A stretch of DNA of 64,000 bases from Thermoflexibacter ruber (GTDB lineage Bacteria > Bacteroidota > Bacteroidia > Cytophagales > Thermoflexibacteraceae): positions 45,786 through 109,785 of the forward strand of contig NZ_FONY01000015.1 of NCBI RefSeq assembly GCF_900113045.1, written 5' to 3'. Shown piece after piece: positions 40,183 through 64,000 of the stretch. Position numbers and translations under genes: made by a program. The notes under the pieces are model-generated. The model saw only the letters and a program-made list of their open reading frames with translations, searched no databases and was not told where the DNA came from. Numbering within the stretch: the first letter of the stretch is position 1; each line of letters starts with the position of its first letter.

Positions 40183-40222
40183 TTAGTAACCTTTTCCTAT
40201 AAAAATAGGAAAAGGTTACTAA
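40183..40222. repeat. Perfect 18-bp-arm inverted repeat, copy 1 (AAAA loop)
   Basis: TTAGTAACCTTTTCCTAT, loop AAAA, then its exact complement. The same arms occur at 42773-42812 with loop TTTT. Degenerate halves of the element appear near 56568, 58170 and 61060. May be a terminator, stem-loop element or recombination site. Confidence 0.8.
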
Positions 40223-40244
40223 AAATCTTCCAACAATTCTATCT

Positions 40245-40277
40245 TACTTTGTAGCGTACTTTGGTACTTAGTTAAGT
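40245..40277 (+). promoter_or_regulatory. Cassette 1 promoter/operator element
   Basis: Two TACTTTG boxes 12 bp apart (40245, 40257), then GTACTTTGGTAC (40256-40267) fused to ACTTAGTTAAGT (40266-40277), 60 bp before the peptide ATG. The near-invariant module heads every cassette. Confidence 0.75.
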
Positions 40278-40337
40278 GAATTTTGAGTTCTTAAAATTAT
40301 CAATCTTTAAAAAGTCAAATTTAAAAAATTTAAAAAC

Positions 40338-40532
40338 ATGAAAAATCATAAAAAGTTAGCAAAGGGAGTATTGGCACTCTCTATGGCTCTAAGTCTGGGT
40401 ACAGCTATATTTATTGATACACATCTGGCTACAGCAAAAACCAAAGAACCTAATAGGACATACAATAGAGAGTGGTATTGCTGTGAAGGAAGTCCCACTG
40501 ATTGCTTAGATTATATTGGCTGCCCTAAATAG
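40338..40532 (+). CDS. Cassette 1 secreted cysteine-rich peptide
   Basis: 64 aa. Lys-rich start MKNHKKLAKG, hydrophobic segment (about 9-26) and a likely signal-peptidase site after THLATA (about 33). The mature region KTKEPN...YCCEGSPTDCLDYIGCPK has four cysteines ending in the C-x5-C pair shared by most peptides of the array. The leader resembles the NVEALA-type small secreted Bacteroidota peptides only in general layout. It is followed by a hairpin and a DUF4221-like lipoprotein gene. Function unknown. Confidence 0.75.
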   Translation: MKNHKKLAKGVLALSMALSLGTAIFIDTHLATAKTKEPNRTYNREWYCCEGSPTDCLDYIGCPK

Positions 40533-40557
40533 TTAAAAATCTCAAAACTTAATTTTT

Positions 40558-40590
40558 AAAGAGTATCTCGTAGGTATAGAGATACTCTTT
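40558..40590 (+). terminator. Intercistronic hairpin, cassette 1
   Basis: Perfect arms AAAGAGTATCTC and GAGATACTCTTT with a 9-base loop, between the peptide and the propeller gene. With only a short T-run it could act as a partial terminator or mRNA stabiliser, favouring peptide over downstream expression. Confidence 0.7.
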
Positions 40591-40619
40591 AGCTAATATC
40601 AACAAATGTAATTGAAAAT

Positions 40620-41861
40620 ATGAAAATCCAAAAAACTAAATATCTCATTCAATTCATGTTTGCAAAGATAGTTTTTTTTCTCATAACTGTTCTTTTTTAT
40701 TCCTGTCAACAGCAAGCCAAAGAGAAGTTAGAATCTACTAATACCGAGTGGATTAATCTGAATTCTGAGCAGCTTTTTAAACTAAATAATTACTTTTCTG
40801 AAAAGCAGGCTACTTTGGAACAATCTGAGATTATCAATATTCCTATAGACTCGGTAAGTTTAAATTATAGTTTGTATCCTGTATATTACGATGCAGATAC
40901 AGCACATTACTACATTACAGCCAACAGGAATCTACATAGTTTAGATTTCTATGACCTTAGTAAAAAGCGATTAGCTAAACGTATAAGATTTGCTAAGGAA
41001 GGGACTGATGGAGTAGCAGGTCTAAGTTTTTTTCATATAAAAAACTTAGATACACTTATTTTTCTTCCTAAAAATTCAAAACATGCTATAATTACAGATT
41101 TAAAAGGCAAGGTATTAAAACGTACTTACATTGAAATAGATGATGAAGATGATTTAAGACATTCTATGGGTGCTCCCCTTGCATTTAGAGATAGTATGCT
41201 AATTGTTTCTAAAATGAAAATAAAACCTCCTATGTCTTTAGTAGGCATTAATACAATGTGTGGCATAAACATACATACAGGCAAGGTAACAGAATACGGA
41301 CCTCGCTTACCTATTGCTTTCAAAGAAAAACAAGCACCTGTTGGCAAAGAATCTCCCCTCTTTGCTTTAGTGGATAATAAAATTAATGTTCGTTTTGGTT
41401 TGCTTTCTGTTATTTATCAGTATAATATGGAAACAGAGGGAATGAAGGTTATTCCTCTTAAAAGTAAATTTCAAAAGCAGCCAATTACTTTATCAGAATA
41501 TACAGACTTTGTAAACATGGTTCATGAAGTAGGGGAAAAGCAAGATTATGAAAAATCAAGCTATCAGAAACTAATGTATGACCCTTATAGAGAAGTCTTT
41601 TACTCTGTTTTTGTGGAAGGTATACCATTGATAGACGAGAAAACAGGTAAAAAAAATGACTACGAAGACCGCCCTATCTCCATCATCATTGCTGATAAGG
41701 ACTTTCGCTATCTGGGGGAAAAATACTTAGGAGTGGGATATTTTAGAAACTTCTTAGTTACTAAAGACGGATTACTCGTATCTAATGCTCACTCAAAAAA
41801 CCCTCATTACCAAGAAGATGTACTTAGTTTTACCCTTTTCAAACTTAAATACCAAGAATGA
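40620..41861 (+). CDS. DUF4221-like beta-propeller lipoprotein, cassette 1
   Basis: 413 aa. Type II signal with lipobox LFYSC (Cys about 29). The family pattern is visible: a strand with IDSVSLNYSLYPVYY, NRNLHSLDFYDLSKKRLAKRIRFAKEGTDGVAG (the xxGPNGVG equivalent is GTDGVAG), FFHIKNLDTLIFLPKNS, YDPYREVFYSVF and a C-terminal IIADKDFRYLGEKYLG. It should fold as a six-bladed propeller at the outer membrane. Its stop overlaps the next ATG by 4 bp. Family function is unknown; position suggests binding or sensing of the peptide (inference). Confidence 0.8.
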   Translation: MKIQKTKYLIQFMFAKIVFFLITVLFYSCQQQAKEKLESTNTEWINLNSEQLFKLNNYFSEKQATLEQSEIINIPIDSVSLNYSLYPVYYDADTAHYYITANRNLHSLDFYDLSKKRLAKRIRFAKEGTDGVAGLSFFHIKNLDTLIFLPKNSKHAIITDLKGKVLKRTYIEIDDEDDLRHSMGAPLAFRDSMLIVSKMKIKPPMSLVGINTMCGINIHTGKVTEYGPRLPIAFKEKQAPVGKESPLFALVDNKINVRFGLLSVIYQYNMETEGMKVIPLKSKFQKQPITLSEYTDFVNMVHEVGEKQDYEKSSYQKLMYDPYREVFYSVFVEGIPLIDEKTGKKNDYEDRPISIIIADKDFRYLGEKYLGVGYFRNFLVTKDGLLVSNAHSKNPHYQEDVLSFTLFKLKYQE

Positions 41862-42316
41862 GAAAAATAATTTTAATGCTCCTCATACTCTTGAGTGCTT
41901 GCCAAGCAGACCAAAGCATAAAGTGGGAAAGTGCCTTAGCAAATCTAAAAAAGGAGTTTAATTTTTCTCTGCAAGAGGGCTATTGCTTAGTCATTTCCTT
42001 TGAGGGTTGTTCTTCTTGCAGGCGCAGAGCTATTGCCTTCTTAGAGAAAAATTTTGCTTACCCAAATATAGTATATATTCTATCAGCCAAGCAAAAGCGT
42101 ATCATTGGGTTTTCTGTAAGCAAAGAAGCCTTAGCCAATCCTAATGTGCTGATAGATACCAACTATCATGCACATAGTTTGGGGTTGGTCAGTGATTTTC
42201 CTACACTTTATCACATTAAAAACGGTGTAATAAAGGAAGTCAAAACGCTTTCCGCTACAAACATTGATGAAGAACTACACCTTTTAGAGCTACGTTTGCA
42301 AAAGAAACTCCTATGA
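41858..42316 (+). CDS. Thioredoxin-like lipoprotein (CSSC), cassette 1
   Basis: 152 aa. Lipobox LLSAC (Cys about 15). The redox motif is GCSSCRRRA (about 49-57), followed by a thioredoxin-like order: strand YILSAK, IDTNYHAHSLGLVSDFPTLYHIKNG with a cis-Pro-like FPT, and a C-terminal helix. Expressed with the propeller through an ATGA overlap. It may oxidise or hold the four-cysteine peptide (inference). No glycosyltransferase follows in this cassette. Confidence 0.75.
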   Translation: MRKIILMLLILLSACQADQSIKWESALANLKKEFNFSLQEGYCLVISFEGCSSCRRRAIAFLEKNFAYPNIVYILSAKQKRIIGFSVSKEALANPNVLIDTNYHAHSLGLVSDFPTLYHIKNGVIKEVKTLSATNIDEELHLLELRLQKKLL

Positions 42317-42772: not shown

Positions 42773-42812
42773 TTAGTAACCTTTTCCTATTTTTATAGGA
42801 AAAGGTTACTAA
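42773..42812. repeat. Perfect 18-bp-arm inverted repeat, copy 2 (TTTT loop)
   Basis: Same arms as at 40183-40222 with the loop reversed to TTTT, i.e. the whole hairpin is in the opposite orientation although its flanks (AAAAAGTAAAAA before, AAATCTTCCAACAATTCTAT after) are in the same orientation. It follows HTH gene 1 directly and may terminate it. Confidence 0.8.
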
Positions 42813-42834: not shown

Positions 42835-42867
42835 TACTTTGTACTGTACTTTGGTACTTACGTAAGT
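42835..42867 (+). promoter_or_regulatory. Cassette 2 promoter/operator element
   Basis: Paired TACTTTG boxes (42835, 42847), GTACTTTGGTAC (42846-42857) and ACTTACGTAAGT (42856-42867). The palindrome centre is ACGT instead of AGCT, yet symmetry is kept. 56 bp to the peptide ATG. Confidence 0.75.
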
Positions 42868-42923: not shown

Positions 42924-43211
42924 ATGAAATCAAATCGCACCGTCGCACGGTTGAAGAAAATTGGGATGATTGCCTTGTTTTTGGTAACGGGTAGCCAAGA
43001 GCAGGTAATGAAAATGTTTGGTGAAAGCCCTGCCCCTGTTTCTAATGAGGCAAAGGCGCAAACTTATAATCCAACGAATTATTTTATATTCTCTTACTGC
43101 ACTATACCAGCAGGAGGATATTGGTGTTACCCATGTTTTCCAGGACCTCGTGTTGGAGGACAGTGTGTAACCCAAGGCGGAAATTGTTTGACATACAGTT
43201 CTTGTGGATAA
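42924..43211 (+). CDS. Cassette 2 secreted cysteine-rich peptide
   Basis: 95 aa. The leader LKKIGMIALFLVTGSQEQVMKMFGES...NEAKAQ is nearly identical to the cassette 7 leader and predicts cleavage at AKA|Q (about 46). The core has six cysteines ending GGQC-x6-C-LTYSS-CG. Residues 5-9 come from a GC-rich 15-bp insertion relative to the other MKSKLKK starts. Core differs strongly from cassette 7 despite the shared leader. Confidence 0.78.
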   Translation: MKSNRTVARLKKIGMIALFLVTGSQEQVMKMFGESPAPVSNEAKAQTYNPTNYFIFSYCTIPAGGYWCYPCFPGPRVGGQCVTQGGNCLTYSSCG

Positions 43212-43307: not shown

Positions 43308-44504
43308 ATGCAAAACACATTATTCTATGTCTTAATCACCCTATCAACAATAAGTACATTTTATTCTTGCAACACAAGTAAAGAAGCAAATAGCCATAAT
43401 AACTATCAATTAGTGTTAGCTGATAGCATCTATTTTCCTATAGATAGTTTGACTTCTTTTAATAATGGAAATGATGTATCTTATAAAAAGATAGAAGGCA
43501 AAGACTACCTCATCATACTCAATAGAAAAATTAATGCTATACAAATGCATGATTTGGAATCCAAAAAGATGACCAAGCGTATTTATTTAGAGCAAGAAGG
43601 ACCTAATGGAGTAGGCATTCCTTCTTATATTCTCTTCCAATCCTTGGATTCTATTTTTGTACTATCAAGTTTTTTATATAAAATTTCTTTAGTGAATGCA
43701 GAGGGAAAACTATTGCAAAAGTATTCATTGCTTAATGCAGGTGTCAAATTTGATGAAGCAACAGGACAAGCTCCCAAAGTTCCAGAAGATAGCTATGCAG
43801 GATTACCACAAGGAGGCACTAATACAATGTTCATTGTGAATAATGAGTTATATATGGGTTGCATCCCAAGCATTACTCCATTTATAAAAGAATTTTATAC
43901 AAAAGGGCAAGTAGGATTGAAACTAAATTTGAGGACTAAAAAAATCTCCTACTTTATGCCTTATCCAGAGGTATATCGCAAGAAAATGTTTTTCCCATTA
44001 GCTTATCTTACCGAATTTGGTTCTGCTTATAATCCAGATAAAAATACCCTCACGTACAGTTTTCCATGTGATGCTAAGGTATATGAAATGGATTTGAATA
44101 CCAATAAAATAGCATCTTATCAGGCAAGTAGTGTTTATTTTAAAGAAATAGAGATATTTTCAACTAATCCAGCAGAAGACCCCAATAGAGCAGAAAAAGA
44201 GTTTGATTTTGCAGTGAGCCATCCACATTTTGAGCGAATTAGGTATGACCCTTATCGCAAAGTTTATTATCGCAATATCTTTCTCCCAAATGATAAGAAA
44301 AAAGAAAAAAATGATTGGCATCCTTACGTAAGGTCTAATTATATCATTTTAGATGAAAACTTTAAGGTATTAGGAGAAACCTTATTGCCAGAGTATGTAG
44401 GTTCAAGCTATTACTTTATCAATGAAGAAGGCTTATTCTTGCAAGGGCTTTCCAGAAATGAAGATGAAATTTGTTTCTATCGCTATGAACTTGTTAAAAA
44501 ATAG
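43308..44504 (+). CDS. DUF4221-like beta-propeller lipoprotein, cassette 2
   Basis: 398 aa. Lipobox TFYSC (Cys about 21). Shows LNRKINAIQMHDLESKKMTKRIYLEQEGPNGVGIPSY, the family signature EGPNGVG (about 100), FQSLDSIFVLSS, SFPCDAKVYEMDLNTNKI, RYDPYRKVYYRNIFLP and ILDENFKVLGETLLPE. It is the closest relative in the window to the cassette 7 propeller. Outer-membrane lipoprotein; ligand unknown. Confidence 0.83.
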   Translation: MQNTLFYVLITLSTISTFYSCNTSKEANSHNNYQLVLADSIYFPIDSLTSFNNGNDVSYKKIEGKDYLIILNRKINAIQMHDLESKKMTKRIYLEQEGPNGVGIPSYILFQSLDSIFVLSSFLYKISLVNAEGKLLQKYSLLNAGVKFDEATGQAPKVPEDSYAGLPQGGTNTMFIVNNELYMGCIPSITPFIKEFYTKGQVGLKLNLRTKKISYFMPYPEVYRKKMFFPLAYLTEFGSAYNPDKNTLTYSFPCDAKVYEMDLNTNKIASYQASSVYFKEIEIFSTNPAEDPNRAEKEFDFAVSHPHFERIRYDPYRKVYYRNIFLPNDKKKEKNDWHPYVRSNYIILDENFKVLGETLLPEYVGSSYYFINEEGLFLQGLSRNEDEICFYRYELVKK

Positions 44505-44510: not shown

Positions 44511-44975
44511 ATGAAAAAAGTTTTCATTTATCTTCTGTTACTTTTGTTAGTTGCTTGCCAAAGTCCACCTTTTCAAGACAAGGAGAACAAACTCAAAAAA
44601 ATGCTTGCCAACTATCAAAAGCCCTCTATTTTGGACAAGCAGGTCTATCTCATAACCATTACAGGCGGTTGTGGCGGTTGTATGCAAGTAGTAGCAGACT
44701 ACATCAAAGAAAATATCGCAGATGAAAAGCATTACTTTATTGTCAGTTGTCCTTCTCAAAAAGAGGTAAGTTTTACATTTAACTATCAAATAAGGCATCA
44801 TGCTAACTTCTTGATAGATAACCAAATGATAGCAGTGAGAGATGAATTGGTAGGAGATATTCACCCCAAAGTCTATTATTGCAAAAATGGGAATATCATA
44901 AATGAAGAGGAAATTACTTTTACCAATGCAAAACAAGTATTTGCTAACATTAAAATCTTCTTAGATAGGCAATGA
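44511..44975 (+). CDS. Thioredoxin-like lipoprotein (CGGC), cassette 2
   Basis: 154 aa. Lipobox LLVAC (Cys about 16). ITITGGCGGCMQ (about 47-58) carries a C-x-x-C pair at the N-terminus of a helix, followed by thioredoxin-like strands and a HPKVYYCKNG segment with an additional Cys near the cis-Pro position. Overlaps the glycosyltransferase start by 4 bp. Closely similar to the cassette 7 protein. Confidence 0.78.
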   Translation: MKKVFIYLLLLLLVACQSPPFQDKENKLKKMLANYQKPSILDKQVYLITITGGCGGCMQVVADYIKENIADEKHYFIVSCPSQKEVSFTFNYQIRHHANFLIDNQMIAVRDELVGDIHPKVYYCKNGNIINEEEITFTNAKQVFANIKIFLDRQ

Positions 44976-46339
44976 AAACTATTTTATTGATTCCTTATTT
45001 TTTTGAAAGTCATTTGTATCCTACCTTCCAAACAGCCAAAACCTTACAAAATCAAGGCTATCACGTAGTTTATGCGATTCATGGAGCATATCATATACAT
45101 ACAAAATCACAAGGATTTGATAGCGTAGAGTTAGGCGGACTTCCCTTTGGCTATGGCTTTGAGAAAGATAATAGAGAGTTTGAAAAAAGTACAGATTTGT
45201 ACTTGGACATACTCCTTGACAAAATTACCAATCGTATCTATGAGGACAGAAAAGCAAAACTTACCAAAATAGTAGAAGAAGTGCACCCACATTTGATTCT
45301 GATAGATACATGGGCAAGCACAGATTTTATTATCCTCTATCCCCTTGCTCAGAAATATGGTATTTCGCTTGCCTTTATGCACCTCATGCTTTCTACTTAT
45401 CGCAAGCAACATTCCTCACCACTTTTTACCCCATTTTTACCCAATGAGAAAGAAGTCATACAAAAAACATGGAAACAATTGGCTTGGCAAAAGAAAAATC
45501 ATAATTTCAAACAAGCTATCAGGTATTTAGGGCATCACGATAGCAAAAAAATAAAGCAAAAATTTAAAGAAAATCTCTTGCCTGACAAACATCAGATTTT
45601 ATGGGAAGAAAATCCTTATAACTATGCCTTTGCAGGTGTGCCAGAGTTGATATTTTCCGCAGAAGAATTGGAGTTTCAGCCTTCTGAAAAGCGCCCCCAT
45701 CAGCAGTATTTGGGTGGAATTATCTATGCCAATCGCAAGCAAACTGATATAGATGAAAAGTATGAAATAGTTTTGAGCCAAATCATAGAGAAAAAGCAAC
45801 CTTTGATGTATTGTGCTTTTGGGACACTACAAAAGAAATTTGTAGGTAGGATAATTTTATTTTTACAAAAACTGTTTTTTGTTTTTCAGCAAAACCCTCC
45901 TTGGCAACTCATCTGTACGGCAAGCAGGGAGGTCAGAGATGCCTTCCAAAACACAGAATTACCTAATAATATTCATCTATTAAGCAAAGTCCCCCAATTA
46001 GCCTTATTGCCCAAAGTAGATGTATTTATTACGCATGGCGGTTTAAACTCTATTCAAGAAGCATTACATTTTCAAGTCCCTACCTTAAATTACCCTCTGA
46101 ATTTGGATTGCGACCATGTAGGCAATGCCGCCCGCATCTTTTACCACCGCTTAGGGCTTAGAGGCGAGATTAGCCAAGACAGTCCAAAAGAAATAGCAGA
46201 AAAGATACAAGAACTGCTCACCAATCCCATTTACAAGCAAAATCTACAGGCTTTTAAGGAGAAAACGGAGGCAAAATATACAGAGGAAAGAGTGCTGACA
46301 CTTTTTGAGGAGTTGATGAGAGAACCTGCTTGGGTTTAG
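44972..46339 (+). CDS. GT1/UGT-like glycosyltransferase, cassette 2
   Basis: 455 aa. GT-B fold: the N-terminus MKTILLIPYFFESHLYPTFQTAKTLQNQGY is the acceptor-side Rossmann start (SH-x-x-P-x-F-x-x-A), and LIDTWASTDFIILYPLA follows. The donor domain has MYCAFGT, NIHLLSKVPQLALLPKVDVFITHGGLNS (UGT signature) and YPLNLDCDHVGNAARI. No signal peptide, so cytosolic. Relatives transfer sugars from UDP-sugars to small molecules. The acceptor could be the peptide, a lipid or a metabolite; cytosolic location argues that peptide modification would precede export. Confidence 0.82.
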   Translation: MKTILLIPYFFESHLYPTFQTAKTLQNQGYHVVYAIHGAYHIHTKSQGFDSVELGGLPFGYGFEKDNREFEKSTDLYLDILLDKITNRIYEDRKAKLTKIVEEVHPHLILIDTWASTDFIILYPLAQKYGISLAFMHLMLSTYRKQHSSPLFTPFLPNEKEVIQKTWKQLAWQKKNHNFKQAIRYLGHHDSKKIKQKFKENLLPDKHQILWEENPYNYAFAGVPELIFSAEELEFQPSEKRPHQQYLGGIIYANRKQTDIDEKYEIVLSQIIEKKQPLMYCAFGTLQKKFVGRIILFLQKLFFVFQQNPPWQLICTASREVRDAFQNTELPNNIHLLSKVPQLALLPKVDVFITHGGLNSIQEALHFQVPTLNYPLNLDCDHVGNAARIFYHRLGLRGEISQDSPKEIAEKIQELLTNPIYKQNLQAFKEKTEAKYTEERVLTLFEELMREPAWV

Positions 46340-46544: not shown

Positions 46545-46565
46545 GTACTTTGGTACTTCGCGAAG
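46545..46565 (+). promoter_or_regulatory. Cassette 3 promoter/operator element
   Basis: GTACTTTGGTAC (46545-46556) followed by CTTCGCGAAG (46556-46565): a third palindrome variant with changes on both sides of the axis that preserve symmetry. 56 bp to the peptide ATG. Confidence 0.75.
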
Positions 46566-46829: not shown

Positions 46830-46867
46830 AAAGAGTTAGAGAAAATGAATCTCTTTTCTAACTCTTT
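46830..46867 (+). terminator. Intercistronic hairpin, cassette 3
   Basis: AAAGAGTTAGA and TCTAACTCTTT arms with a second small GAGA/TCTC pairing inside, followed by ATTTTTTATT. A plausible partial terminator after the peptide gene. Confidence 0.75.
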
Positions 46868-46898
46868 ATTTTTTATTAATGACATTAAAAATTTTACT

Positions 46899-48077
46899 AT
46901 GCATAAATTCATTTTTTTTTATATTAGTTTCTTTTTTATTATATTTTCTCTATATTCTTGTAATACTAATAAAGAAAAGAAAGAACAACATAACAACGAT
47001 ATATACACTTTTAAAAAACAAGGTATTAAATCTTTTTTGTTAGACAGTGTCACTGCACCACACAGTACATGTATTCAGTACTTAGAAAACTTTTTTTTAG
47101 CAGAAAAGCAAGCTGATTTTTTAGCTACATTAAATATGAATGATAACAGCATCATATTCTATGATTATGAGATTGGGAGTATGAAAAGTAAAATAAAGTT
47201 TTTTAAAGAAGGAGAACAAGGTGTAGGGAGTATATTTGGCTTTTCTATTATTAATCAGGATTCTATATTGATACATCGATATCATGGAATGCAACTTTAT
47301 TTGGTAAATAGCAAGGCACAGGTATTGAAAAGCTATAAACTTTCCTCTGATAATTTCCCTTTTTCTGTATTCCCAGCAAGTACCTCTAACCCAATCAATA
47401 AAATACATAATTACGTGTATATGAATAGTGATGGGAAGCTTGACCCCAATAATGCAAAAGTAGACTTAAAAGGCATTGTGGCTTGCATAGATATAAACAC
47501 TGGAAAAATCGTTCCTAAACTTTACTACCCTGAAATTTACAAAATTGGAATATGGACTCCTGAGTTTTTGACCTCTTATCATACTCCTCCTTTATTTAAG
47601 GAGCAAGTAGTTTTTAGTTTCCCTATTATAGATTCTATCTATGTGACCGACTACAATGATTATGTGGGAAAGTATTATGCAGGCAGTAAGTTCCAAAATT
47701 CGCCTATAAAACCACTCTCTACTCAACTTGGTAGTGGCTTGCCTCCTTATGAGCAGAGAGAAAAATATCGCCTCTCTCAGCTATACTATGGTGCTATTTA
47801 CTATGATGAATTTCAAAAATATTACTATCGCTTTTGCTTTCTACCAATTAGTGAGTCTGATTATGTATCAGGAGTTCCTCTGAAGAGTAAGGAGCAGAAA
47901 GTGTCAATTATTATTTTGGATAGCTCTTTTAACAAAGTAGGTGAGGTTGATTTAGAAGCATATAAGTATAATCCGTATATGGTTTTTATTAACAAAAATG
48001 GTTTACATATTGCACTTAAAGCTAATGGAAATGAAGATAACCTTATTTTTGAAATCTTTAAAGTAGTAAAAAAATAA
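46899..48077 (+). CDS. DUF4221-like beta-propeller lipoprotein, cassette 3
   Basis: 392 aa from ATG 46899; an earlier in-frame ATG at 46845 lies inside the hairpin and would bury the signal peptide. MHKFIFFYISFFFIIFSLYSC gives the lipobox. Family features: MNDNSIIFYDYEIGSMKSKIKFFKEGEQGVG (EGEQGVG for EGPNGVG), INQDSILIHRYHG, FSFPIIDSIYVTDYN and IILDSSFNKVGEVDL. Most similar in layout to the cassette 5 propeller (YAGSKFQNS/YAGSKSFTNS). Confidence 0.82.
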   Translation: MHKFIFFYISFFFIIFSLYSCNTNKEKKEQHNNDIYTFKKQGIKSFLLDSVTAPHSTCIQYLENFFLAEKQADFLATLNMNDNSIIFYDYEIGSMKSKIKFFKEGEQGVGSIFGFSIINQDSILIHRYHGMQLYLVNSKAQVLKSYKLSSDNFPFSVFPASTSNPINKIHNYVYMNSDGKLDPNNAKVDLKGIVACIDINTGKIVPKLYYPEIYKIGIWTPEFLTSYHTPPLFKEQVVFSFPIIDSIYVTDYNDYVGKYYAGSKFQNSPIKPLSTQLGSGLPPYEQREKYRLSQLYYGAIYYDEFQKYYYRFCFLPISESDYVSGVPLKSKEQKVSIIILDSSFNKVGEVDLEAYKYNPYMVFINKNGLHIALKANGNEDNLIFEIFKVVKK

Positions 48078-50118: not shown

Positions 50119-50140
50119 GTACTTTGGTACTTAGCTAAGT
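50119..50140 (+). promoter_or_regulatory. Cassette 4 promoter/operator element
   Basis: GTACTTTGGTAC (50119-50130) overlapping ACTTAGCTAAGT (50129-50140), a perfect 12-bp palindrome, 55 bp before the peptide ATG. Confidence 0.75.
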
Positions 50141-52501: not shown

Positions 52502-52654
52502 TTTTGGCAGCCTTACTGTTGGTTGATTCATTAGCTTTTATTGTAATATCCTTAATGTTTCTTGAGATGAACCTGCATATCCAAGTATATTCTATTCCGA
52601 ACTTAACTATTTCTATGGAAAATAAGTGAATGTTTGTCTATTTTAAACTGAAAA

Positions 52655-52873: not shown

Positions 52874-52984
52874 GTAAAAAATCTATTAAAAAAACAACCA
52901 TAACATACATCATTCCAAAGCAAAATACAAATCTTGTATGTAGAAACCATATAAAACTTAAAATATTAATAATCAACAAAATAA

Positions 52985-53085: not shown

Positions 53086-53107
53086 GTACTTTGGTACTTA
53101 GCTAAGT
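53086..53107 (+). promoter_or_regulatory. Cassette 5 promoter/operator element
   Basis: GTACTTTGGTAC (53086-53097) with ACTTAGCTAAGT (53096-53107), 55 bp before the peptide ATG. Identical to the cassette 4 element. Confidence 0.75.
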
Positions 53108-54677: not shown

Positions 54678-54690
54678 TATTTATCACTTG

Positions 54691-56561: not shown

Positions 56562-56637
56562 GCAAAAATTAGTAACCTTTTCCTATTTTTTCTTTCTCCT
56601 TAATTGCTTACTTTTGTTAGTAAATCTTACTTTTCTT

Positions 56638-57717
56638 ATGCTCAAATCTATTTTTTACTATCTTGCTATCACAGTCGCATTTTCTGCCTGCCAAGATGCC
56701 TCTTCTATGGAAGAAGCCGCTAAAACCCTCTCTCAGACCTCTCCCCAAGAAAGAACTACCCTTGTGCAGGTAGCTATCTCGGAGGAAAAGCCCTTCCACT
56801 TGCAAGTGCTTGCCAATGGCAAGGTCAATGCCTTGCTGCAAAGCCAACTCTACTTCAAGGCACAGGGAACGATAGAAAAGATAAACATAGCCAATGGAGA
56901 TAGGGTAAGAGCAGGGCAAACCTTAGCCGTATTGGACAATAGACAGCAAGCAGTTGCCTTAGAGCAAGCCCAAAACCAATACCGCAAGGCAGTGAACGAC
57001 CTTAACCTCGAGATAGTAAACTATGGTGGTGTTGATAGAGATACTAACAGTGTAAAGCCTCACATTTTAAATGTGTTGAAAATCAAAGTAGGCTATAACG
57101 AAGCCCTGACCGCCATCAAAAATGCCCAAGTACAGTACGATAATACCTACCTGATAGCCCCTTATGGCGGTATCATTGCTAACCTCAAAGCTCGTCCTCA
57201 CAATCCCGCACCCCTTAACGAGCCTTTCTGTACTTTGCTCAACAGGGACAACTTGGTGGTAGAAATCGCCATTTTAGAATCAGAGTTGGCTCATGTTCAG
57301 CTTGGGCAAAGTGCTACTATCCAGCCCATTACCTACCGTAGCAAGCATAGCTACCAAGGTAGGGTATTGGAAATAAACCCCATCGTAAGCGAGCAGGGGT
57401 TGGTGCGGGTAAAAGTAAAGATAGCAAACCCTGATGCCGAACTCTTAGAAGGCATGAACGTCAATGTAGTGATAGAAAAAATACTCCCTAAGTATGTCCT
57501 CGTCCCTAAGACGGCAGTAGTAGAAAGGTCAGGACGTAAAGTAGTCTTTACCCACGAAAAAGGATTGGCAAAATGGCACTATGTAACTGTGGTTCACGAA
57601 AATAGCCAAGTCATAGCTATCAGCGAGGGACTGAAGGCAGGCGAGCAGGTCATCATAGACGGCAACCTCAATCTGGGGCATGATGCCCCAGTGGAAGTAA
57701 TGAAAAAAGAGCAGTAG
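56638..57717 (+). CDS. HlyD/AcrA-type efflux periplasmic adaptor lipoprotein
   Basis: 359 aa from ATG 56638, chosen because MLKSIFYYLAITVAFSAC gives a lipobox; the frame itself opens further upstream inside the glycosyltransferase gene. Features: biotinyl-lipoyl-like half motifs QGTIEKINIANGDRVRAGQTLAVLD (about 70-94) and TYLIAPYGGIIANLKAR, a short helical hairpin between, then beta-barrel and membrane-proximal domains (ILPKYVLVPKTAVVERSGRKVVFT). It connects an RND permease to TolC. No permease is adjacent; the nearest is the RND gene at 36702-40013 beyond the first five cassettes. Confidence 0.87.
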   Translation: MLKSIFYYLAITVAFSACQDASSMEEAAKTLSQTSPQERTTLVQVAISEEKPFHLQVLANGKVNALLQSQLYFKAQGTIEKINIANGDRVRAGQTLAVLDNRQQAVALEQAQNQYRKAVNDLNLEIVNYGGVDRDTNSVKPHILNVLKIKVGYNEALTAIKNAQVQYDNTYLIAPYGGIIANLKARPHNPAPLNEPFCTLLNRDNLVVEIAILESELAHVQLGQSATIQPITYRSKHSYQGRVLEINPIVSEQGLVRVKVKIANPDAELLEGMNVNVVIEKILPKYVLVPKTAVVERSGRKVVFTHEKGLAKWHYVTVVHENSQVIAISEGLKAGEQVIIDGNLNLGHDAPVEVMKKEQ

Positions 57718-58203: not shown

Positions 58204-58236
58204 TACTTTATAGCGTACTTTGGTACTTAGCTAAGT
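58204..58236 (+). promoter_or_regulatory. Cassette 6 promoter/operator element
   Basis: TACTTTA (58204) and TACTTTG (58216) 12 bp apart, GTACTTTGGTAC (58215-58226) fused to ACTTAGCTAAGT (58225-58236), 61 bp before the peptide ATG. The 5' leader matches that of cassette 1. Confidence 0.75.
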
Positions 58237-58911: not shown

Positions 58912-60120
58912 ATGATACTGACTTCAATAAAAAAGCCTTTATACATTGGATTAATTAATATATTATTAGTCTTCTGTATTTGCTGTACTGATAAACATGC
59001 AGAGCAACAGGCTCATTCCACAGCTAATAAGGCAATTGAATTTGTTATAGACTCTATTACTATCTCTACTGACTCTACTTTTCTAAGCTTTTATGATACC
59101 TATTCTGTTATTAATGTTGCAGGTAAACCTACCTTTTATGGCTATAATCACAAAAGGCACAGCATAGACATTCTTAGCTTAGAAGGAAATGACCAGAGAA
59201 ATAGGATTGTCTTGCAAAAGGAAGGTCCTGATGGCATAGATGATTTATACTCTATCCATGTTCAGTCTCCTGACAGTATTTTTATCTCTACCCAAACATC
59301 ATTTTATTTAGTTTCTAGCGAGGGGCGTCTTCTGAACAAGTGGAACGTGGAAGCTGATAATATTGCTTTTTTTAGCAAGAACGCACTTCATATTACTGCT
59401 GAAACGCCTATCTCTTACGACAGTCATAATAAAATAATCTATGCTAAAATAGTGCCTTATGACAGAAATATCTCTGGGCAAAAAACCTATCGAATGCCTA
59501 TACTTGGGAAATATAACCTTAATAATAAGACCTTTACTGCACTACCTGTATATTTTCCAAAAGCCTATCAAGAGGAGTATAAAGGATTTCTTGACAAAGT
59601 AAAAATGAGTAATAGCTACCATAAAGGAAGATTAAAGCGCATATACTTTACTTTTGGAGCTATGTCTTCTTTAGCCTATTATGATGTAGAAAAAGAGAAA
59701 TACCTATTGACAGATGCTCCATCGATAATCACTGATAATGAAGCTCCCAGTTTAGCTTGGAGCGACGCAAACAATATAGACAAAAAGATGCGACATTTTA
59801 TCAACAATGTATTTTTTGGGAATACGGTCTATGAGGCAGGAATAGGTATAGGATTTAGACTTCATCTCGACAAACTTCCAAGTAATGTAACAGACCTGCG
59901 TAATGCTGCATTAAAAAGAAAACTTATTTTGACTGCCTTTGATAGTAGTCATCATATTTTAAAAGAAGTAGATTTTCCTATTAGAAACGTAGCACGTGAA
60001 TTTGCTTTTGTAGCAAATGGGAGGCTTTATCTACCAATGTGGAGTATAAACCCAAAAGACGAAGACGAAAATAAACTCAAATTCTTGATTTTGAATGTAA
60101 AATATGAGGAAAGCAATTAA
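58912..60120 (+). CDS. DUF4221-like beta-propeller lipoprotein, subtype B, cassette 6
   Basis: 402 aa. Lipobox VFCICC (Cys about 24-25). Shares IDSITISTDSTFLSFYDTYSVI, GYNHKRHSIDILSLEG, LQKEGPDGIDDLYSIHVQSPDSIFIS, LAWSDANNIDKKMRHFINNV and GFRLHLDKLPSNVTDLRN with the cassette 4 propeller. Signature loop EGPDGID. The stop overlaps the following CxC lipoprotein start by 17 bp. Confidence 0.82.
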   Translation: MILTSIKKPLYIGLINILLVFCICCTDKHAEQQAHSTANKAIEFVIDSITISTDSTFLSFYDTYSVINVAGKPTFYGYNHKRHSIDILSLEGNDQRNRIVLQKEGPDGIDDLYSIHVQSPDSIFISTQTSFYLVSSEGRLLNKWNVEADNIAFFSKNALHITAETPISYDSHNKIIYAKIVPYDRNISGQKTYRMPILGKYNLNNKTFTALPVYFPKAYQEEYKGFLDKVKMSNSYHKGRLKRIYFTFGAMSSLAYYDVEKEKYLLTDAPSIITDNEAPSLAWSDANNIDKKMRHFINNVFFGNTVYEAGIGIGFRLHLDKLPSNVTDLRNAALKRKLILTAFDSSHHILKEVDFPIRNVAREFAFVANGRLYLPMWSINPKDEDENKLKFLILNVKYEESN

Positions 60121-60568
60121 ACATTGGCTATTGCTTGTTTATTTGGCTACTTCGTGTGTGCAAGAACGTAATCAAGTAGAAGAAATAGATGAACACTTCA
60201 TCAACTTTTTAACCCAAGAGATAAACTTTGACATGAAAAGCAAGGGTAAATGGGGAATAGTCATACTACAAGGCAGTGATTGCGCTTGTAAAGAAGCTAA
60301 TCATTTGTTTATTAATAGCTTAATAAGAAAATTTAAGAACATTAATTTTGTTATCATTGCTAAGAATGATATAGAGAATAGAATAAAAACTACGATAACT
60401 ATGCGATCTAACATTAGTATTTATTTTGAAGATAACGACCAATTATTAGAAAAACATGGTAATTTATTTGTCGGAGATAAAATCTTTATTTTTGAAGATG
60501 GAAGTTTTACTCAAACGCTTAACATTGAAAAAGATAATTATGAAGTTATAGAAGATTCTTTTATGTAA
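60104..60568 (+). CDS. Thioredoxin-like lipoprotein with CxC motif, cassette 6
   Basis: 154 aa. Lipobox YLATSC (Cys about 18). The redox site is LQGSDCACKEANHLFINSL (Cys-Ala-Cys), then FVIIAKND, IYFEDNDQLLEKHGNLFVGDKIFIFEDG. Matches the cassette 4 protein in motif and C-terminal half (LLEKHGN-[IL]-FV). No glycosyltransferase follows; the HTH gene 3 module begins about 60 bp later. Confidence 0.76.
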   Translation: MRKAIKHWLLLVYLATSCVQERNQVEEIDEHFINFLTQEINFDMKSKGKWGIVILQGSDCACKEANHLFINSLIRKFKNINFVIIAKNDIENRIKTTITMRSNISIYFEDNDQLLEKHGNLFVGDKIFIFEDGSFTQTLNIEKDNYEVIEDSFM

Positions 60569-60707: not shown

Positions 60708-60792
60708 TTTGAATTACTGTAAATAAATACTACACGCACATAGAGAGGTTACACACAGATAGTTCCTTTTACTAAAACCTTTTTTCTTTCCT

Positions 60793-61103: not shown

Positions 61104-61136
61104 TACTTTGTAGCGTACTTTGGTACTTAGCTAAGT
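61104..61136 (+). promoter_or_regulatory. Cassette 7 promoter/operator element
   Basis: TACTTTG at 61104 and 61116, GTACTTTGGTAC (61115-61126) and ACTTAGCTAAGT (61125-61136), 56 bp before the peptide ATG. Confidence 0.75.
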
Positions 61137-61438: not shown

Positions 61439-61477
61439 AAAATGAGTGAGTAGAAATAGTTTTTATTCACTCATTTT
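61439..61477 (+). terminator. Intercistronic hairpin, cassette 7
   Basis: AAAATGAGTGA and TCACTCATTTT, 11-bp arms with a 17-base loop followed by ATTTTA, 9 bp after the peptide stop. Confidence 0.72.
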
Positions 61478-61523
61478 ATTTTACTGCTTTTACAACATGT
61501 GTGCAAATAACCCAATAATCCCT

Positions 61524-62711
61524 ATGATGAAGCCAATCACTGCCTTTTGTATAATTTTCATACCTTTACTTTTTATTTTGAGTTGTAATAATTCGGAAAA
61601 AGCATTTGTTAATGATAATGAGTTTACTTTAGTTGAGGTTGATACAGTACATATCCCAATAGACACTGTCACTACTCCTTATGATATTTCTATAAGCCAT
61701 TATACAGATGATAGAAGCAAGATAGAATATCTAATATTGATGAATAGAAAAAATAATAGCCTACAATTTTATGATTGGGCTACCCAAAAACTTTATAAAA
61801 CTGTTTCCTTGGAAAGAGAGGGTCCGAATGGTGTAGGTGGAGCCTTGTCTTTCCATTTTCAAAGTTGGGATTCTATCTATGTATTGGCAAGCTACCACTA
61901 TCGCTTGTCTTTGATAGATACTACTGCCAAAGTCAAACAGAAATATAGACTTCTCAAAACTGATATGAAGTTGGATGAAGGGAGGGTATCTCGCCCTCAA
62001 GGAGAGTATTCCGCCTTACCTTCCTCTAATTATATGAACCCTTTGATAAAAGTTGGAAGTTTTATTTACATGACAGGTGTACCTGATTTGAATATAAACA
62101 GCCTTGAATATTATAAGAAAGGGAGAATAGGTATCCAACTTAGTTTAGAGAATGGGCAAATAGAATATTACAAAGATTATCCTCAAATGTACAGAGATAA
62201 ATACTTCTTTCCTCCTCAATATATTACCAAATTCAGTAGTACGTATATTCCAAATAAGAATAAAATAATTTATAGTTTTCCCATAGATGAAAACTTATAT
62301 GAGTTAGACTTAAAAACAGGGAATATAAATGCTATAATTCCTGATAAAAGCCAATATTTTAAAGAATTAAAGCCAATTTCTAAAAAAGCAGACAGAGATA
62401 TGAATACTGATTATTTATATTCTGTTAATAATGTTAGTTATGAAAGGATTATTTATGACCAATATAGAAAAGTCTATTATCGCTTTACAAATATTCCAAA
62501 CACAAAAAAGAAAGATGAATATGATAATCAGCCTTATGTAGTTCATTCTGTTGTTATTTTAGATGAAAACTTGAAAAAATTAGGAGAAACAATCTTGAAT
62601 GAAAGATATACAGTAGGTTATCATCTGTGCCTACCTGATGGCTTGTATTTGCAAAAATATAATTTTAGTGAAGATGAAATTGCATTTGTAAAGTTTACAC
62701 TGAAAAATTAG
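61524..62711 (+). CDS. DUF4221-like beta-propeller lipoprotein, cassette 7
   Basis: 395 aa from ATG 61524; the frame opens earlier at a GTG inside the hairpin. MMKPITAFCIIFIPLLFILSC is the lipoprotein signal. Family features LMNRKNNSLQFYDWATQKLYKTVSLEREGPNGVGG, FQSWDSIYVLASYHYRLSLIDTT, SFPIDENLYELDLKTGNI, YDQYRKVYYRFTNIP and ILDENLKKLGETILNE. Closest to the cassette 2 propeller. Confidence 0.82.
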   Translation: MMKPITAFCIIFIPLLFILSCNNSEKAFVNDNEFTLVEVDTVHIPIDTVTTPYDISISHYTDDRSKIEYLILMNRKNNSLQFYDWATQKLYKTVSLEREGPNGVGGALSFHFQSWDSIYVLASYHYRLSLIDTTAKVKQKYRLLKTDMKLDEGRVSRPQGEYSALPSSNYMNPLIKVGSFIYMTGVPDLNINSLEYYKKGRIGIQLSLENGQIEYYKDYPQMYRDKYFFPPQYITKFSSTYIPNKNKIIYSFPIDENLYELDLKTGNINAIIPDKSQYFKELKPISKKADRDMNTDYLYSVNNVSYERIIYDQYRKVYYRFTNIPNTKKKDEYDNQPYVVHSVVILDENLKKLGETILNERYTVGYHLCLPDGLYLQKYNFSEDEIAFVKFTLKN

Positions 62712-62715
62712 AGAT

Positions 62716-63177
62716 ATGAGATACATCGGCATACTTTTTTTCATCTTACTATTCGGGTGTAGTTCAAACCCCAATAAAGAACGAGAAGAAAAATTAATAG
62801 ATTTATTACAATCGTATCAGTTAGGTAGTAGTTTAGATAAATCTATTTACCTTATCACTATTACAGGTGGGTGCGGTGGTTGTATGCAAGAAGCCGCCAC
62901 ATTCATAAGAACAAATGTAAAAGACAATCGCTATTTGTTTATTATCAGCACTGACTCGAGAAAAGCAGTGAGTCTTGACTTTGAATATCATGTAAGGCAA
63001 AGTCCTAATTTTTTGATTGATACCAAGCTATTAGCACAAAAATATGAATTAGTAGAGATAGAGCATCCTGTGATATATTTTTGCAAAAATAAAAAAGTGG
63101 TAGATATACGTGAACTTACTTACCAAAATGCAGATAGCTTATTCAGCTATATAAATAATTTTCTGGACAATCTATGA
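62716..63177 (+). CDS. Thioredoxin-like lipoprotein (CGGC), cassette 7
   Basis: 153 aa. Lipobox ILLFGC (Cys about 15). ITITGGCGGCMQEAATFIR (about 46-64) is identical to cassette 2 through CGGCMQ, and EHPVIYFCKNKKVVD keeps the extra Cys after the cis-Pro-like position. Begins 4 bp after the propeller stop and overlaps the glycosyltransferase ATG by 4 bp. Confidence 0.78.
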   Translation: MRYIGILFFILLFGCSSNPNKEREEKLIDLLQSYQLGSSLDKSIYLITITGGCGGCMQEAATFIRTNVKDNRYLFIISTDSRKAVSLDFEYHVRQSPNFLIDTKLLAQKYELVEIEHPVIYFCKNKKVVDIRELTYQNADSLFSYINNFLDNL

Positions 63178-63699
63178 AAAATATCTTACTACTATTACAT
63201 ATTTTTGAGAGCCACTACACCCCCACTTTCCAACTTGCTAAACTACTCCAATCACAGGGCTATCAGGCAGTTTATGCCGTCCCAGAACGCTATAAGGCAC
63301 ACATAGAGGCACAGGGTTTTACTTCCATAACTTTACTTGGCTTCCCCTTTGGACTTGGTTTTGAGAAGGACAACAGAGAGTTTGAAAAAAGCCAAGACCT
63401 TTACTTAGATGTACTCCTTGACAAAATCTCTAACCGCATTTACGAGGACAGAAAAGCAAAACTCTCTCAAATAGTAGATGCCCTACAACCCACTCTTATC
63501 CTGATAGATATGTGGATAAGTACAGATTTGATAATGGTGTACCCCAAAGTTTGGACAAATAAAGCTACAAGAACTGCTCACCAATCCCCTTTACAAGCAA
63601 AACCTACAAACCTTCAAAGAAAAAACAGAAGCAAAATATACAGAGGAGAGAGTGCTGACCCTCTTTGAGGAGTTGATGAGAGAACCTGCCTGGGTTTAG
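63174..63699 (+). pseudogene. Internally deleted glycosyltransferase with IS-like scar, cassette 7
   Basis: The first about 118 codons match the cassette 5 enzyme (SHYTPTFQLAKLLQSQGYQAVYAVPE). At about 63530 homology breaks at a short foreign stretch containing GTGTACCCCAAAGTTTGG, then resumes out of frame at the C-terminal end (LLTNPLYKQNLQTFKEKTEAKY...EPAWV, stop 63699). The literal frame instead runs to 63668 with a meaningless tail. About 270 codons including the donor-binding domain are lost, so it cannot be active. Confidence 0.88.
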
Positions 63700-63810
63700 G
63701 TGAAAACTCTATTAAAAAAACAACCATAACATACATCATTCCAAAGCAAAATACAAATCTTATATATAGAAACTACACAAAACATAATACTCTAATAATC
63801 AACAAAATAA

Positions 63811-63831
63811 TTCATAATTCATAATTCATAA
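63811..63831. repeat. Heptamer tandem repeat TTCATAA x3
   Basis: Three exact copies, the shortest array, in the more diverged spacer before cassette 8. Confidence 0.9.
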
Positions 63832-63883
63832 TTTTCTTGTTAAAAAGTTTGCAAAATACAAAATACTTACATATTATTGTGCT

Positions 63884-63905
63884 GTATTTTGGTACTTAGC
63901 TAAGT
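63884..63905 (+). promoter_or_regulatory. Cassette 8 promoter/operator element
   Basis: GTATTTTGGTAC (63884-63895, one base changed) fused to a perfect ACTTAGCTAAGT (63894-63905), 55 bp before the peptide ATG. Confidence 0.7.
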
Positions 63906-63960
63906 GGTTGCTGCAATGATAAAATTAGAAATCTTGTTGAAATTTTAAATCATTTAAATT

Positions 63961-64000
63961 TATGAAATCAAAATTGAAGAAAGTGGGAATTACTTTATTG
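63961..64000 (+). CDS. Cassette 8 peptide, partial at right edge
   Basis: ATG followed by SKLKKVGITLL, the conserved peptide leader start, preceded by the standard operator and the AAATCATTTAAATTT leader. The core lies beyond the window, so the array continues to the right. Confidence 0.8.

Follow-up and report, generated by a model that had tools for sequence, protein, structure and literature searches.

Cassettes of secreted cysteine-rich peptides and propeller lipoproteins adjoin a divergent RND permease in Thermoflexibacter ruber

Introduction

In Bacteroidales, small secreted Cys peptides of the NVEALA family (PF14055) are encoded directly upstream of DUF4221 genes, as at loci L102 and L151. 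The databases used give no function for DUF4221 (PF13970), and the words NVEALA and DUF4221 were absent from the literature searched; one DUF4221 structure, from Bacteroides vulgatus, has been solved (3s9j). Among transporters, MdtABC-type pumps combine two different permeases with a single adaptor in one operon, and an excerpt of PMC8277102 describes MdtBC as a known, rare heterotrimer. Excerpted text of PMC9629497 has RND pumps removing peptides such as LL-37, and mtrD mutations raising susceptibility to the disulfide peptide protegrin-1; MtrCDE is reported, again in excerpt, not to remove alpha-defensins in gonococcus. The RND precedent for peptide removal is thus mixed, favourable for protegrin-1 and LL-37 and unfavourable for alpha-defensins.

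Here we describe a cassette array in a 64,000-nucleotide window (the whole stretch of DNA that was analysed) of Thermoflexibacter ruber. Its peptides hold the same gene position as NVEALA but differ in family: none of 13 (all nine whole ones in the window and four of the five beyond it) matched PF14055 at E up to 1, while both NVEALA-motif peptides tested as controls did (L102, 4.9e-15; L151, 4.5e-11); the L112 and L103 peptides had no match. The NVEALA context that a sequence-only reading of this DNA had invoked is therefore real in Bacteroidales, where the gene position is equivalent. Unlike this array, the Bacteroidales neighbourhoods that we read showed no LuxR-type HTH or glycosyltransferase gene, and RND genes occurred only in some (L088 and L098, both in our tree; partial RNDs at L136 and L141).

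Results

The cassette array is real: positions 40183-64000 hold seven whole cassettes, after which an eighth begins (Table 1). All seven have the order peptide(s), DUF4221 lipoprotein, small lipoprotein, as the earlier reading had described. Beyond the window it extends 11.1 kb further, to the contig end (C72:109000-120882, locus L010), adding three more propeller types and bringing the count to 11 cassettes, which encode 14 peptides and 11 propeller lipoproteins. It is not a product of chance, because the same families, box and order of genes turn up in many genomes. In L010, cassettes of a six-bladed DUF5128 (PF17170) propeller and DUF1573 share the peptide-propeller-small-Cys-protein plan but use another propeller family, with DUF1573 (CGC motif) replacing the Trx-like lipoprotein. 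The glycosyltransferase, previously called frequent, is complete only at 44972-46339, 48554-49927 and 55155-56561, with one truncated copy and one 3'-end scar; it is a lineage-restricted extra.

Table 1 Features of the array and its upstream border, in window positions
Feature	Position	Strand	Basis
RND-B, divergent RND permease, 1103 aa, upstream array border	36702..40013	-	Pfam ACR_tran 295.7 bits; RND-B clade; genome's one RND-B match
Perfect 40-nt palindrome, copy 1	40183..40222	.	genome has only two copies
Shared box GTACTTTGGTACTT + dyad, cassette 1 (C72:86041-86054)	40256..40269	+	box search
Cassette 1 secreted Cys peptide, 64 aa	40338..40532	+	ORF
Cassette 1 DUF4221 propeller lipoprotein	40620..41861	+	PF13970 E 7.5e-25
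Cassette 1 Trx-like lipoprotein, CSSC	41858..42316	+	ORF, alignment
Standalone LuxR/GerE HTH, 70 aa	42557..42769	+	PF00196 E 1.1e-13
Perfect 40-nt palindrome, copy 2	42773..42812	.	repeat search
Shared box, cassette 2	42846..42859	+	box search
Cassette 2 peptide, 95 aa, 6 Cys	42924..43211	+	ORF
Cassette 2 DUF4221, predicted propeller	43308..44504	+	Pfam; closest solved fold 3s9j (DUF4221)
Cassette 2 Trx-like lipoprotein, CGGC, predicted thioredoxin fold	44511..44975	+	pLDDT 95; best fold match DsbE 3gl3 E 6e-4
Cassette 2 UGT/MGT-like glycosyltransferase	44972..46339	+	EryCIII-like_C, UDPGT over Pfam cut-off
Shared box, cassette 3, dyad CTTCGCGAAG	46545..46558	+	box search
Cassette 3 peptide, 64 aa	46622..46816	+	ORF
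Cassette 3 DUF4221	46845..48077	+	ORF, Pfam
Cassette 3 Trx-like lipoprotein, CEGC	48084..48551	+	ORF, alignment
Cassette 3 glycosyltransferase	48554..49927	+	ORF, repeat comparison
Shared box, cassette 4	50119..50132	+	box search
Cassette 4 peptide a, 84 aa	50196..50450	+	ORF
Cassette 4 peptide b, 74 aa	50483..50707	+	ORF
Cassette 4 DUF4221	50818..52029	+	ORF, Pfam
Cassette 4 small lipoprotein, CSC	51995..52501	+	ORF
Duplication scar: GT 3' end + intergenic	52654..52953	+	96% identity to 46120-46419
Shared box, cassette 5	53086..53099	+	box search
Cassette 5 peptide, 67 aa	53163..53366	+	ORF
Cassette 5 DUF4221	53547..54677	+	ORF, Pfam
Cassette 5 Trx-like lipoprotein, CSGC	54628..55158	+	ORF, alignment
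Cassette 5 glycosyltransferase	55155..56561	+	ORF
HlyD/RND adaptor (MFP), start probably ~56635	56527..57717	+	HlyD_D23 E 2.2e-17; TIGR01730 RND_mfp 154.6 bits, over cut-off
Standalone LuxR/GerE-like HTH, 80 aa	57865..58107	+	sequence resemblance to 42557-42769
Shared box, cassette 6	58215..58228	+	box search
Cassette 6 peptide a, 74 aa	58295..58519	+	ORF
Cassette 6 peptide b, 69 aa	58575..58784	+	ORF
Cassette 6 DUF4221	58912..60120	+	ORF, Pfam
Cassette 6 small lipoprotein, CAC	60104..60568	+	ORF
Standalone LuxR/GerE-like HTH, 77 aa	60793..61026	+	60644-60943 = 95% identity to 42408-42707
Shared box, cassette 7	61115..61128	+	box search
Cassette 7 peptide, 78 aa	61193..61429	+	ORF
Cassette 7 DUF4221	61446..62711	+	ORF, Pfam
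Cassette 7 Trx-like lipoprotein, CGGC	62716..63177	+	ORF, alignment
Truncated glycosyltransferase	63174..63668	+	ORF, repeat comparison
Shared box GTATTTTGGTACTT, cassette 8	63884..63897	+	box search
Cassette 8 peptide, start only, rest in L010	63962..64000	+	ORF

An operator had been proposed for every cassette; the element common to all is a 14-bp box, GTAYTTTGGTACTT, followed by a dyad of 10-14 nt, whereas the perfect 40-nt palindrome, which the earlier reading may have taken for that operator, precedes only cassettes 1 and 2 and is found nowhere else in the genome. The box has 12 exact sites in the 5.5-Mb genome, and each, with its dyad, lies 74-82 nt 5' of a gene for a secreted, Cys-rich peptide. 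The array accounts for 11 of these sites, with one in front of each cassette, in a single orientation and similar in appearance. The array also holds three standalone LuxR/GerE domains of 70-80 aa, that at 42557 assigned by Pfam and those at 57865 and 60793 by sequence likeness. The predicted hairpin between peptide and DUF4221 genes was found in five of the seven cassettes (z -2.75 to -4.07) but not in the remaining two, whose spacers measure 28 and 16 nt. Both this genome-wide operator regulon and the RND-A/RND-B/MFP pump described below had been overlooked in the earlier reading.

A secreted Cys peptide, with signal peptides called by a simple rule of our own, lies directly 5' of 52 of 65 DUF4221 genes that have a downstream Trx-like lipoprotein, as against 5 of 298 unrelated ORFs of >430 aa (p 1.6e-44), bearing out the conservation of the gene set across genomes; in this genome all nine DUF4221 genes have one directly upstream. 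Cys number is even in 60 of 64 peptides (four Cys in 46), making the proposed disulfide-rich character likely. Across 64 pairs, the peptide core correlates with the propeller (r 0.34, p 0.002, the floor for 500 permutations) more than the leader does (r 0.07, p 0.09); within the window's family alone the leader is as good as the core (leader-propeller 0.53, core-propeller 0.46), with 0.47 and 0.38 in this genome alone. Pooled pN/pS of the cores is 0.50, with single pairs near 0.8, and in the one cross-species pair the core is more conserved than the leader (dN 0.13 versus 0.34). The extreme variation of cores noted in the earlier reading holds between cassettes, but the comparisons indicate that it is leaders and promoters that are homogenised, the cores being of greater age and subject to net constraint.

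All nine genomic DUF4221 proteins, including all seven window propellers, exceed the PF13970 gathering cut-off (54.7-131.7 bits versus 23.4), and the predicted fold of the cassette 2 protein is shared with 3s9j (TM 0.75/0.82) and also matches BtuG-type surface lipoproteins. Of the small lipoproteins, five of seven carry CxxC and two CxC (51995-52501 and 60104-60568), as had been noted; the model of 44511-44975 shows a predicted thioredoxin fold, its vicinal Cys following the first strand, and matches DsbE/ResA/CcmG and peroxiredoxins (E 6e-4 to 5e-3, TM ~0.4-0.5). The Cys pair is invariant in 48 aligned sequences, which include six of the window's seven. An acidic lipoprotein tail is a surface-export-like motif; at least two acidic tail residues were found in 31 of 168 lipobox DUF4221 and 15 of 40 MFP proteins. 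Because most lack such tails, the cassette lipoproteins probably face the periplasm. DUF4221 arrays without peptides, distant from the pump, also occur (group f19).

The array starts beside RND-B; within it lie an RND adaptor (MFP) and a partial copy of a second permease, RND-A. In an RND tree, 38 of 39 locus RNDs (>=700 aa) fell into two clades, RND-A and RND-B, and 19 other RNDs, drawn from three of these genomes, all fell outside both. Among 241 Cytophagales genomes, RND-B and DUF4221 occur together in 36, DUF4221 alone in five (one, G008, from the window's own family), RND-B alone in four and neither in 196 (p 6e-33); in the class but outside the order, four of five RND-B genomes have DUF4221 (p 1.3e-6). 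The 33 loci from an RND-B search include a recognised propeller in 25 and RND-A in 30, and in 19 a peptide is the immediate 5' neighbour of a propeller or of a propeller-sized unassigned ORF; across 40 RND-B loci, MFP is present at 35 and no propeller was recognised at eight. Conversely, 24 of 80 DUF4221 loci carry RND-A and/or RND-B, none carries another RND class, and 56 have no visible RND within flanks of up to 10 kb, many shortened by contig ends. The order peptide-DUF4221-Trx-MFP-RND-A-RND-B occurs in L107 (Algoriphagus aquaeductus) and L205, and Chitinophaga L117 reads DUF4221-Trx-MFP-RND-A-OEP. At several Bacteroidales, flavobacterial and Chitinophaga loci a protein of 700-930 aa takes the place of the RND, in some with an O-antigen-ligase-like protein upstream; the pump is therefore not universal.

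As in HAE-1 RND tripartite pumps, the TM4 Asp equivalent to D407 is present in all 39 RND-A/B sequences. None has the AcrB-type D407-D408-K940 relay, carrying D-N-N or variants instead, whereas 12 of 20 comparison RNDs have D-D-K; a TM10 acid and Lys occur in RND-A but not in RND-B (eight sequences each). As in MdtABC-type operons, a single adaptor gene can be joined by two different permease genes, but RND-A of G002 (276-303 bits) and the window RND-B (112-116 bits) score far below the NCBIfam cut-offs for MdtB and MdtC (1584 and 1774).

Discussion

The frequent adjacency of peptide-propeller sets and a two-permease pump suggests an undescribed handling or export of small folded peptides. We consider it plausible, if somewhat short of an even chance, that the locus serves periplasmic handling and export of disulfide mini-proteins by cognate lipoproteins and a dedicated RND pump. 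Sec would export one or two small proteins per cassette into the periplasm, where they would form disulfides, mostly two, made or reshuffled by the thioredoxin-fold lipoprotein; each propeller lipoprotein may bind its own cassette's peptide, and a tripartite pump of MFP and a putatively heteromeric RND-A/RND-B would move the peptide, or its cargo, from periplasm to outside. The common box would switch the cassettes jointly, read probably by the small LuxR-type HTH proteins, and the hairpin after the peptide gene may set a high peptide:propeller ratio, the pump operon of this genome having presumably been filled with recombined cassettes. Rather doubtful, in our view, is the fuller proposal of a hitherto unrecognised two-step Bacteroidota secretion route, from Sec through folded disulfide mini-proteins and their own propellers to a dedicated two-permease RND that would export all of the diversified peptides, with the pump operon as a recombination platform that collects cassettes.

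The pump might instead export another substrate (a lipid, metal chelate or toxic compound), with peptide, propeller and thiol lipoprotein forming a periplasmic sensor or gate, the many cassettes providing many input specificities and the LuxR-type protein the output. Propellers that adjoin RND-A/B without a peptide-propeller pair (L184, L186, L187, L190, L194, L198 and L199), the HTH proteins and common box, and lipoproteins that probably face the periplasm would suit this alternative; we regard it as unlikely, since the box precedes the peptides themselves at every site, which looks more like production than sensing, and an unsystematic look at the cassette ORFs noticed no signal transducer.

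The earlier reading had proposed contact, antagonism or self-recognition, which gain no support from the acidic tails, scarce as these are, or from the family searches: six window peptides gave no match over cut-off to an NCBIfam bacteriocin or RiPP family (best ocin match 12.5 bits, cut-off 40), and five array proteins had no PADLOC defence model match. Bacteriocin-like toxins with propellers as immunity proteins and the pump as exporter or self-protection would account for secreted, Cys-paired peptides whose genes, single or in pairs, each have one lipoprotein partner, for tandem amplification with recombining leaders and, given that some antimicrobial peptides are resisted by means of RND pumps (PMC9629497), for the transporter. 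Constrained cores, a 400-aa propeller that is big for an immunity protein and large DUF4221 arrays without peptides nevertheless make this quite improbable; antagonism is possible, without specific support. That cassette shuffling changes which peptide is displayed at the surface, in a contact or antigen system serving recognition or phase variation, is very unlikely: recombination-prone repeats, homogenised promoters and leaders beside diverging cores and the BtuG-type fold match would fit, but 11 like-oriented, similar boxes give no hint of a single active copy among many silent ones, few lipoproteins have surface-export-like tails, and the cores appear old and constrained, not fast-varying.

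Such peptides and their propeller partners are widespread in Bacteroidota, including Bacteroides and Parabacteroides, and their tie to one RND pair and one operator provides a testable hypothesis of compartment, transporter and regulator. Should the peptides indeed be exported by this pump, a dedicated role in protein secretion would be added to those of RND pumps.

A tandem array of peptide, propeller and thioredoxin-like genes

The cassettes described in the sequence-only reading are present in the Thermoflexibacter ruber genome (5.50 Mb in 123 contigs; Cytophagales): seven are complete within the window (C72:45786-109785), an eighth begins at its end, and all lie on the forward strand. In each of the seven, one secreted Cys-rich peptide, or a pair of them in cassettes 4 and 6, is encoded together with a DUF4221 lipoprotein and with a small lipoprotein that bears a CxxC motif (five cassettes) or CxC (two). 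Past the window, the array runs on for a further 11.1 kb to the contig end (L010), where four cassettes, beginning with cassette 8, have propellers of other kinds than DUF4221; the whole comprises 11 cassettes, 14 peptides and 11 propellers over ~35 kb. Situated between cassettes are an RND adaptor (MFP) and three LuxR/GerE-like domains, each of them standalone. A secreted peptide rich in Cys immediately precedes the genome's other two DUF4221 genes as well, making 9/9 for the genome.

A UGT/MGT-like glycosyltransferase is complete in three cassettes, truncated in one and reduced to a 3′-end scar in another. We rejected it as a core part, complete intra-cassette copies having been seen only in the window's family (genomes G000, G002 and G008) and a Chryseosolibacter locus, L091; at L058, the glycosyltransferase is ~4 kb away from the cassette.

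Location and character of features in the window, its continuation and related loci (unprefixed coordinates are window positions; L010, C72:109000-120882; L043, sister genome G002)
Location	Strand	Feature	Detail
3-7901	-	Open frame	At least 2633 aa, running off the window start
40183-64000	+	Cassette array	Seven complete cassettes and start of eighth
43308-44504	+	DUF4221 lipoprotein	Structure modelled
44511-44975	+	Small lipoprotein	Structure modelled
46425-46494; 50013-50082; 52959-53028; 63785-63854; L010		AATTCAT-type 7-nt repeat runs	
L010		Propeller, unassigned type	Accompanied by a CLTC lipoprotein
L010		Two similar 6-bladed propellers	One is DUF5128 by Pfam; DUF1573 follows the first
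L010		Further propeller type	Two peptides, a carboxypeptidase-regulatory-like protein and DUF1573
L010:5126-5605		RND-A 5′ fragment	
C54:86864 (L223; L211:1575-2735)		Twelfth promoter box	Before gene for 92-aa Cys peptide
L043:13181-14743; L043:17138-17758		Uncharacterised protein, 520 aa, and shorter copy	Between cassettes

The small lipoprotein of cassette 2 (44511-44975) is predicted, with a pLDDT of 95, to adopt a thioredoxin fold whose best matches are DsbE, peroxiredoxins, ResA and CcmG, at modest TM scores of 0.4-0.5; its Cys pair is invariant across the 48 chosen sequences aligned for this model (51995-52501 was omitted). The neighbouring DUF4221 protein, modelled from 53 chosen sequences, is a predicted propeller with the solved DUF4221 structure 3s9j as its top match (E 5e-27), followed by YncE and B12-binding surface lipoproteins of BtuG type. 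Among 64 peptides from non-duplicate peptide-propeller pairs in this and other genomes, 60 have an even number of cysteines and 46 have exactly four, which indicates disulfides.

A common promoter box precedes the peptide genes

The box GTAYTTTGGTACTT has 12 copies in the genome (a control pattern had none), one per array cassette and one on contig C54, and all 12 lie 74-82 nt upstream of the point where a secreted Cys peptide gene starts. A dyad follows each box, usually CTTAGCTAAG; the variants CTTACGTAAG and CTTCGCGAAG (two copies) carry changes that preserve symmetry, and the cassette 1 dyad has an altered centre. On C54 the peptide gene is followed by genes for a GLPGLI-type protein (Porph_ging) and an 877-aa receptor-like protein, partners that differ from those of the array. 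The sister genome G002 contains no exact match to GTAYTTTGGTACTT; related boxes are readable upstream of two of the five peptides inspected there. A 40-nt palindrome considered as the common operator was rejected, as the genome holds just two copies.

Strong hairpins occupy five of the seven spacers between peptide and DUF4221 genes (53367-53510 being the only stretch folded for cassette 5) and may set the peptide-to-propeller ratio. Just upstream of most cassette promoters are AATTCAT-type repeat runs of varying copy number, possibly sites of recombination or slippage.

Leaders are younger than peptide cores

Compared between array cassettes, DNA is 66-98% identical in the 90-nt stretch preceding the start codon; over the first 30 coding nt, six of eight comparisons reach 83% or more (54-55% in the other two), and identity falls to 25-51% at nt 91-130. 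The claim that peptide cores vary extremely beside conserved flanks holds between cassettes. Pooled over 11 peptide pairs, however, synonymous difference (pS) amounts to 0.64 in cores against 0.36 in leaders, and pN/pS to 0.50 against 0.30, with wide variation between single pairs and some core dS values saturated; these contrasts indicate that leaders and promoters were recently homogenised and that the cores have a longer history and are subject to net constraint. Rapid hypervariation of the cores was therefore rejected as the main story, since their synonymous sites are also near saturation and the leaders are younger. The only cross-species pair (the peptide at 53163 and its G002 counterpart) has a core more conserved than its leader (dN 0.13 versus 0.34).

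In a Mantel test on 64 peptide-propeller pairs (68 before removal of duplicates), core similarity tracked propeller similarity with r = 0.34, against 0.07 for leaders; within the window's family (14 pairs), cores (0.46) and leaders (0.53) both track the propeller. Glycosyltransferase 3′ scars and RND-A/MFP 5′ pieces mark the duplication borders.

The gene set is conserved across Bacteroidota

Scanning named genomes yielded 80 DUF4221 loci, nearly all titled Bacteroidota (one, L111, carries a spirochaete MAG title that probably reflects a binning error). Conservation of the gene set, which the sequence-only reading had proposed checking, was borne out: a secreted Cys peptide lies at most 330 nt upstream of 52/65 DUF4221 genes with a downstream thioredoxin-like gene, versus 5/298 unrelated ORFs longer than 430 aa. 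The same test gave 26/128 for DUF4221 genes lacking the thioredoxin-like gene and 14/54 for DUF5128-like genes; signal peptides and peptides were called by simple rules, with a background upstream of unrelated ORFs of 1.7% (>430 aa) or 4% (330-430 aa). The suggested NVEALA context was likewise found, with an NVEALA-type motif in the upstream peptide at seven Bacteroidales loci (L102, L104, L131, L133, L134, L136 and L151); both motif peptides tested match PF14055.

A related plan, with a protein of 700-930 aa encoded downstream, is found at several loci of Chitinophaga, Niastella, flavobacteria and Bacteroidales; in the two such proteins tested, an MG2 match fell below cut-off. At L112, L119, L125 and L126 (Chitinophaga, Niastella) and L106 and L130 (flavobacteria), this large gene comes after peptide, DUF4221 and thioredoxin-like genes, and several of these six loci also have an upstream protein of ~610-640 aa. 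Some related-plan loci have an O-antigen-ligase-like protein upstream, with Wzy_C above cut-off in L112, the one tested. The Chitinophaga, Niastella and flavobacterial variant is possibly a glycosylated form of the same system. An iron-stimulon table for B. thetaiotaomicron (PMC10434189) has O-antigen ligase BT0662 and 6-bladed propeller BT0664 two locus numbers apart, an arrangement similar to the plan described here.

A second mode of DUF4221 amplification is seen in the f19 genomes (L059-L061), whose tandem arrays of up to ~14 DUF4221 genes in a row lack peptides, thioredoxin-like genes and RND; judging from L107 and L053, this group would hold Algoriphagus-like genomes.

Two RND clades recur at cassette loci

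RND genes are recurrent at cassette loci. A tree of 59 RND proteins (at least 700 aa, one duplicate dropped, read without support values) placed 38/39 locus RNDs, all but that of L047, within two clades, RND-A and RND-B; 19/19 other RNDs, sampled from three of the genomes, fell outside both, and a twentieth, taken from the window's genome (contig C29) and chosen for its RND-A-like score, fell in RND-A. With classes defined from locus sequences and then reused as profiles, RND-A and/or RND-B occur at 24/80 loci: 18/44 with a peptide-DUF4221 pair and 6/36 without. Chance neighbourhood of common RNDs was rejected, since G000 has 16 ACR_tran matches (including pieces of one gene), yet no RND outside the two classes occurs at any of the 80 loci, many of them shortened by contig ends. 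Outside the 80, counterexamples include an ordinary RND ~6 kb from DUF4221 in G008 (L047); at L178 and L180 an ordinary RND lies beyond the A/B operon.

An RND-B profile search matched 40/241 Cytophagales genomes once each; because two or three candidates were scored per genome, this is a best-match count. Taking the searched genomes as G000-G240, all within the DUF4221 search, 36 have both RND-B and DUF4221, five DUF4221 only, four RND-B only and 196 neither. A class-wide draw of 295 genomes gave nine, four, one and 281, respectively; outside the order (284 genomes, if the 11 listed same-order genomes are all), four have both, four DUF4221 only and one RND-B only. Related sequences enter all tests and are not independent, so p-values are guides only. 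Near the 33 RND-B genes fetched through this search, RND-A was found in 30 cases, an adaptor in 29 and a recognised propeller in 25; in 19, a peptide gene immediately preceded either a propeller gene or an unassigned ORF of propeller size.

The compact operon peptide-DUF4221-Trx-MFP-RND-A-RND-B occurs in Algoriphagus aquaeductus (L107) and G074 (L205), and with extra genes ahead of MFP in G045 (L053). The window's genome has RND-B at the border of the array, the adaptor within the array and, cut off by the end of contig C29, a 943-aa piece of RND-A; in G002, cassettes of like kind are flanked by RND-B and RND-A, all on a single contig. At L197 (G085) and L203 (G175), several peptide-propeller cassettes are mixed in among RND-A, MFP and RND-B genes, and these loci seem to have expanded independently in a similar manner; L203 also has an 81-aa LuxR/GerE-like protein among its cassettes.

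A proposed periplasmic handling and export system

Neither word, NVEALA or DUF4221, occurs in the literature searched, a body outside which most subscription papers and preprints fall. Combined searches returned no description of this system among the matches listed (titles and abstract starts), so one may exist elsewhere, and a PADLOC search of five array proteins gave no match.

The first TM4 Asp is kept in 39/39 RND-A/B proteins. A TM10 acid and Lys are present in RND-A and absent from RND-B (eight sequences of each), making an RND-A/RND-B heteromer plausible from sequence; MdtBC is cited as a heteromeric RND precedent (PMC8277102). MtrCDE-type resistance, as described in PMC9629497 (α-defensins are reported there as not removed by MtrCDE in gonococcus), offers a precedent for peptide removal by RND pumps. 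In the best-supported model, which we put forward tentatively, disulfide mini-proteins would be handled in the periplasm and exported by a system comprising their cognate lipoproteins and an RND pump dedicated to them.
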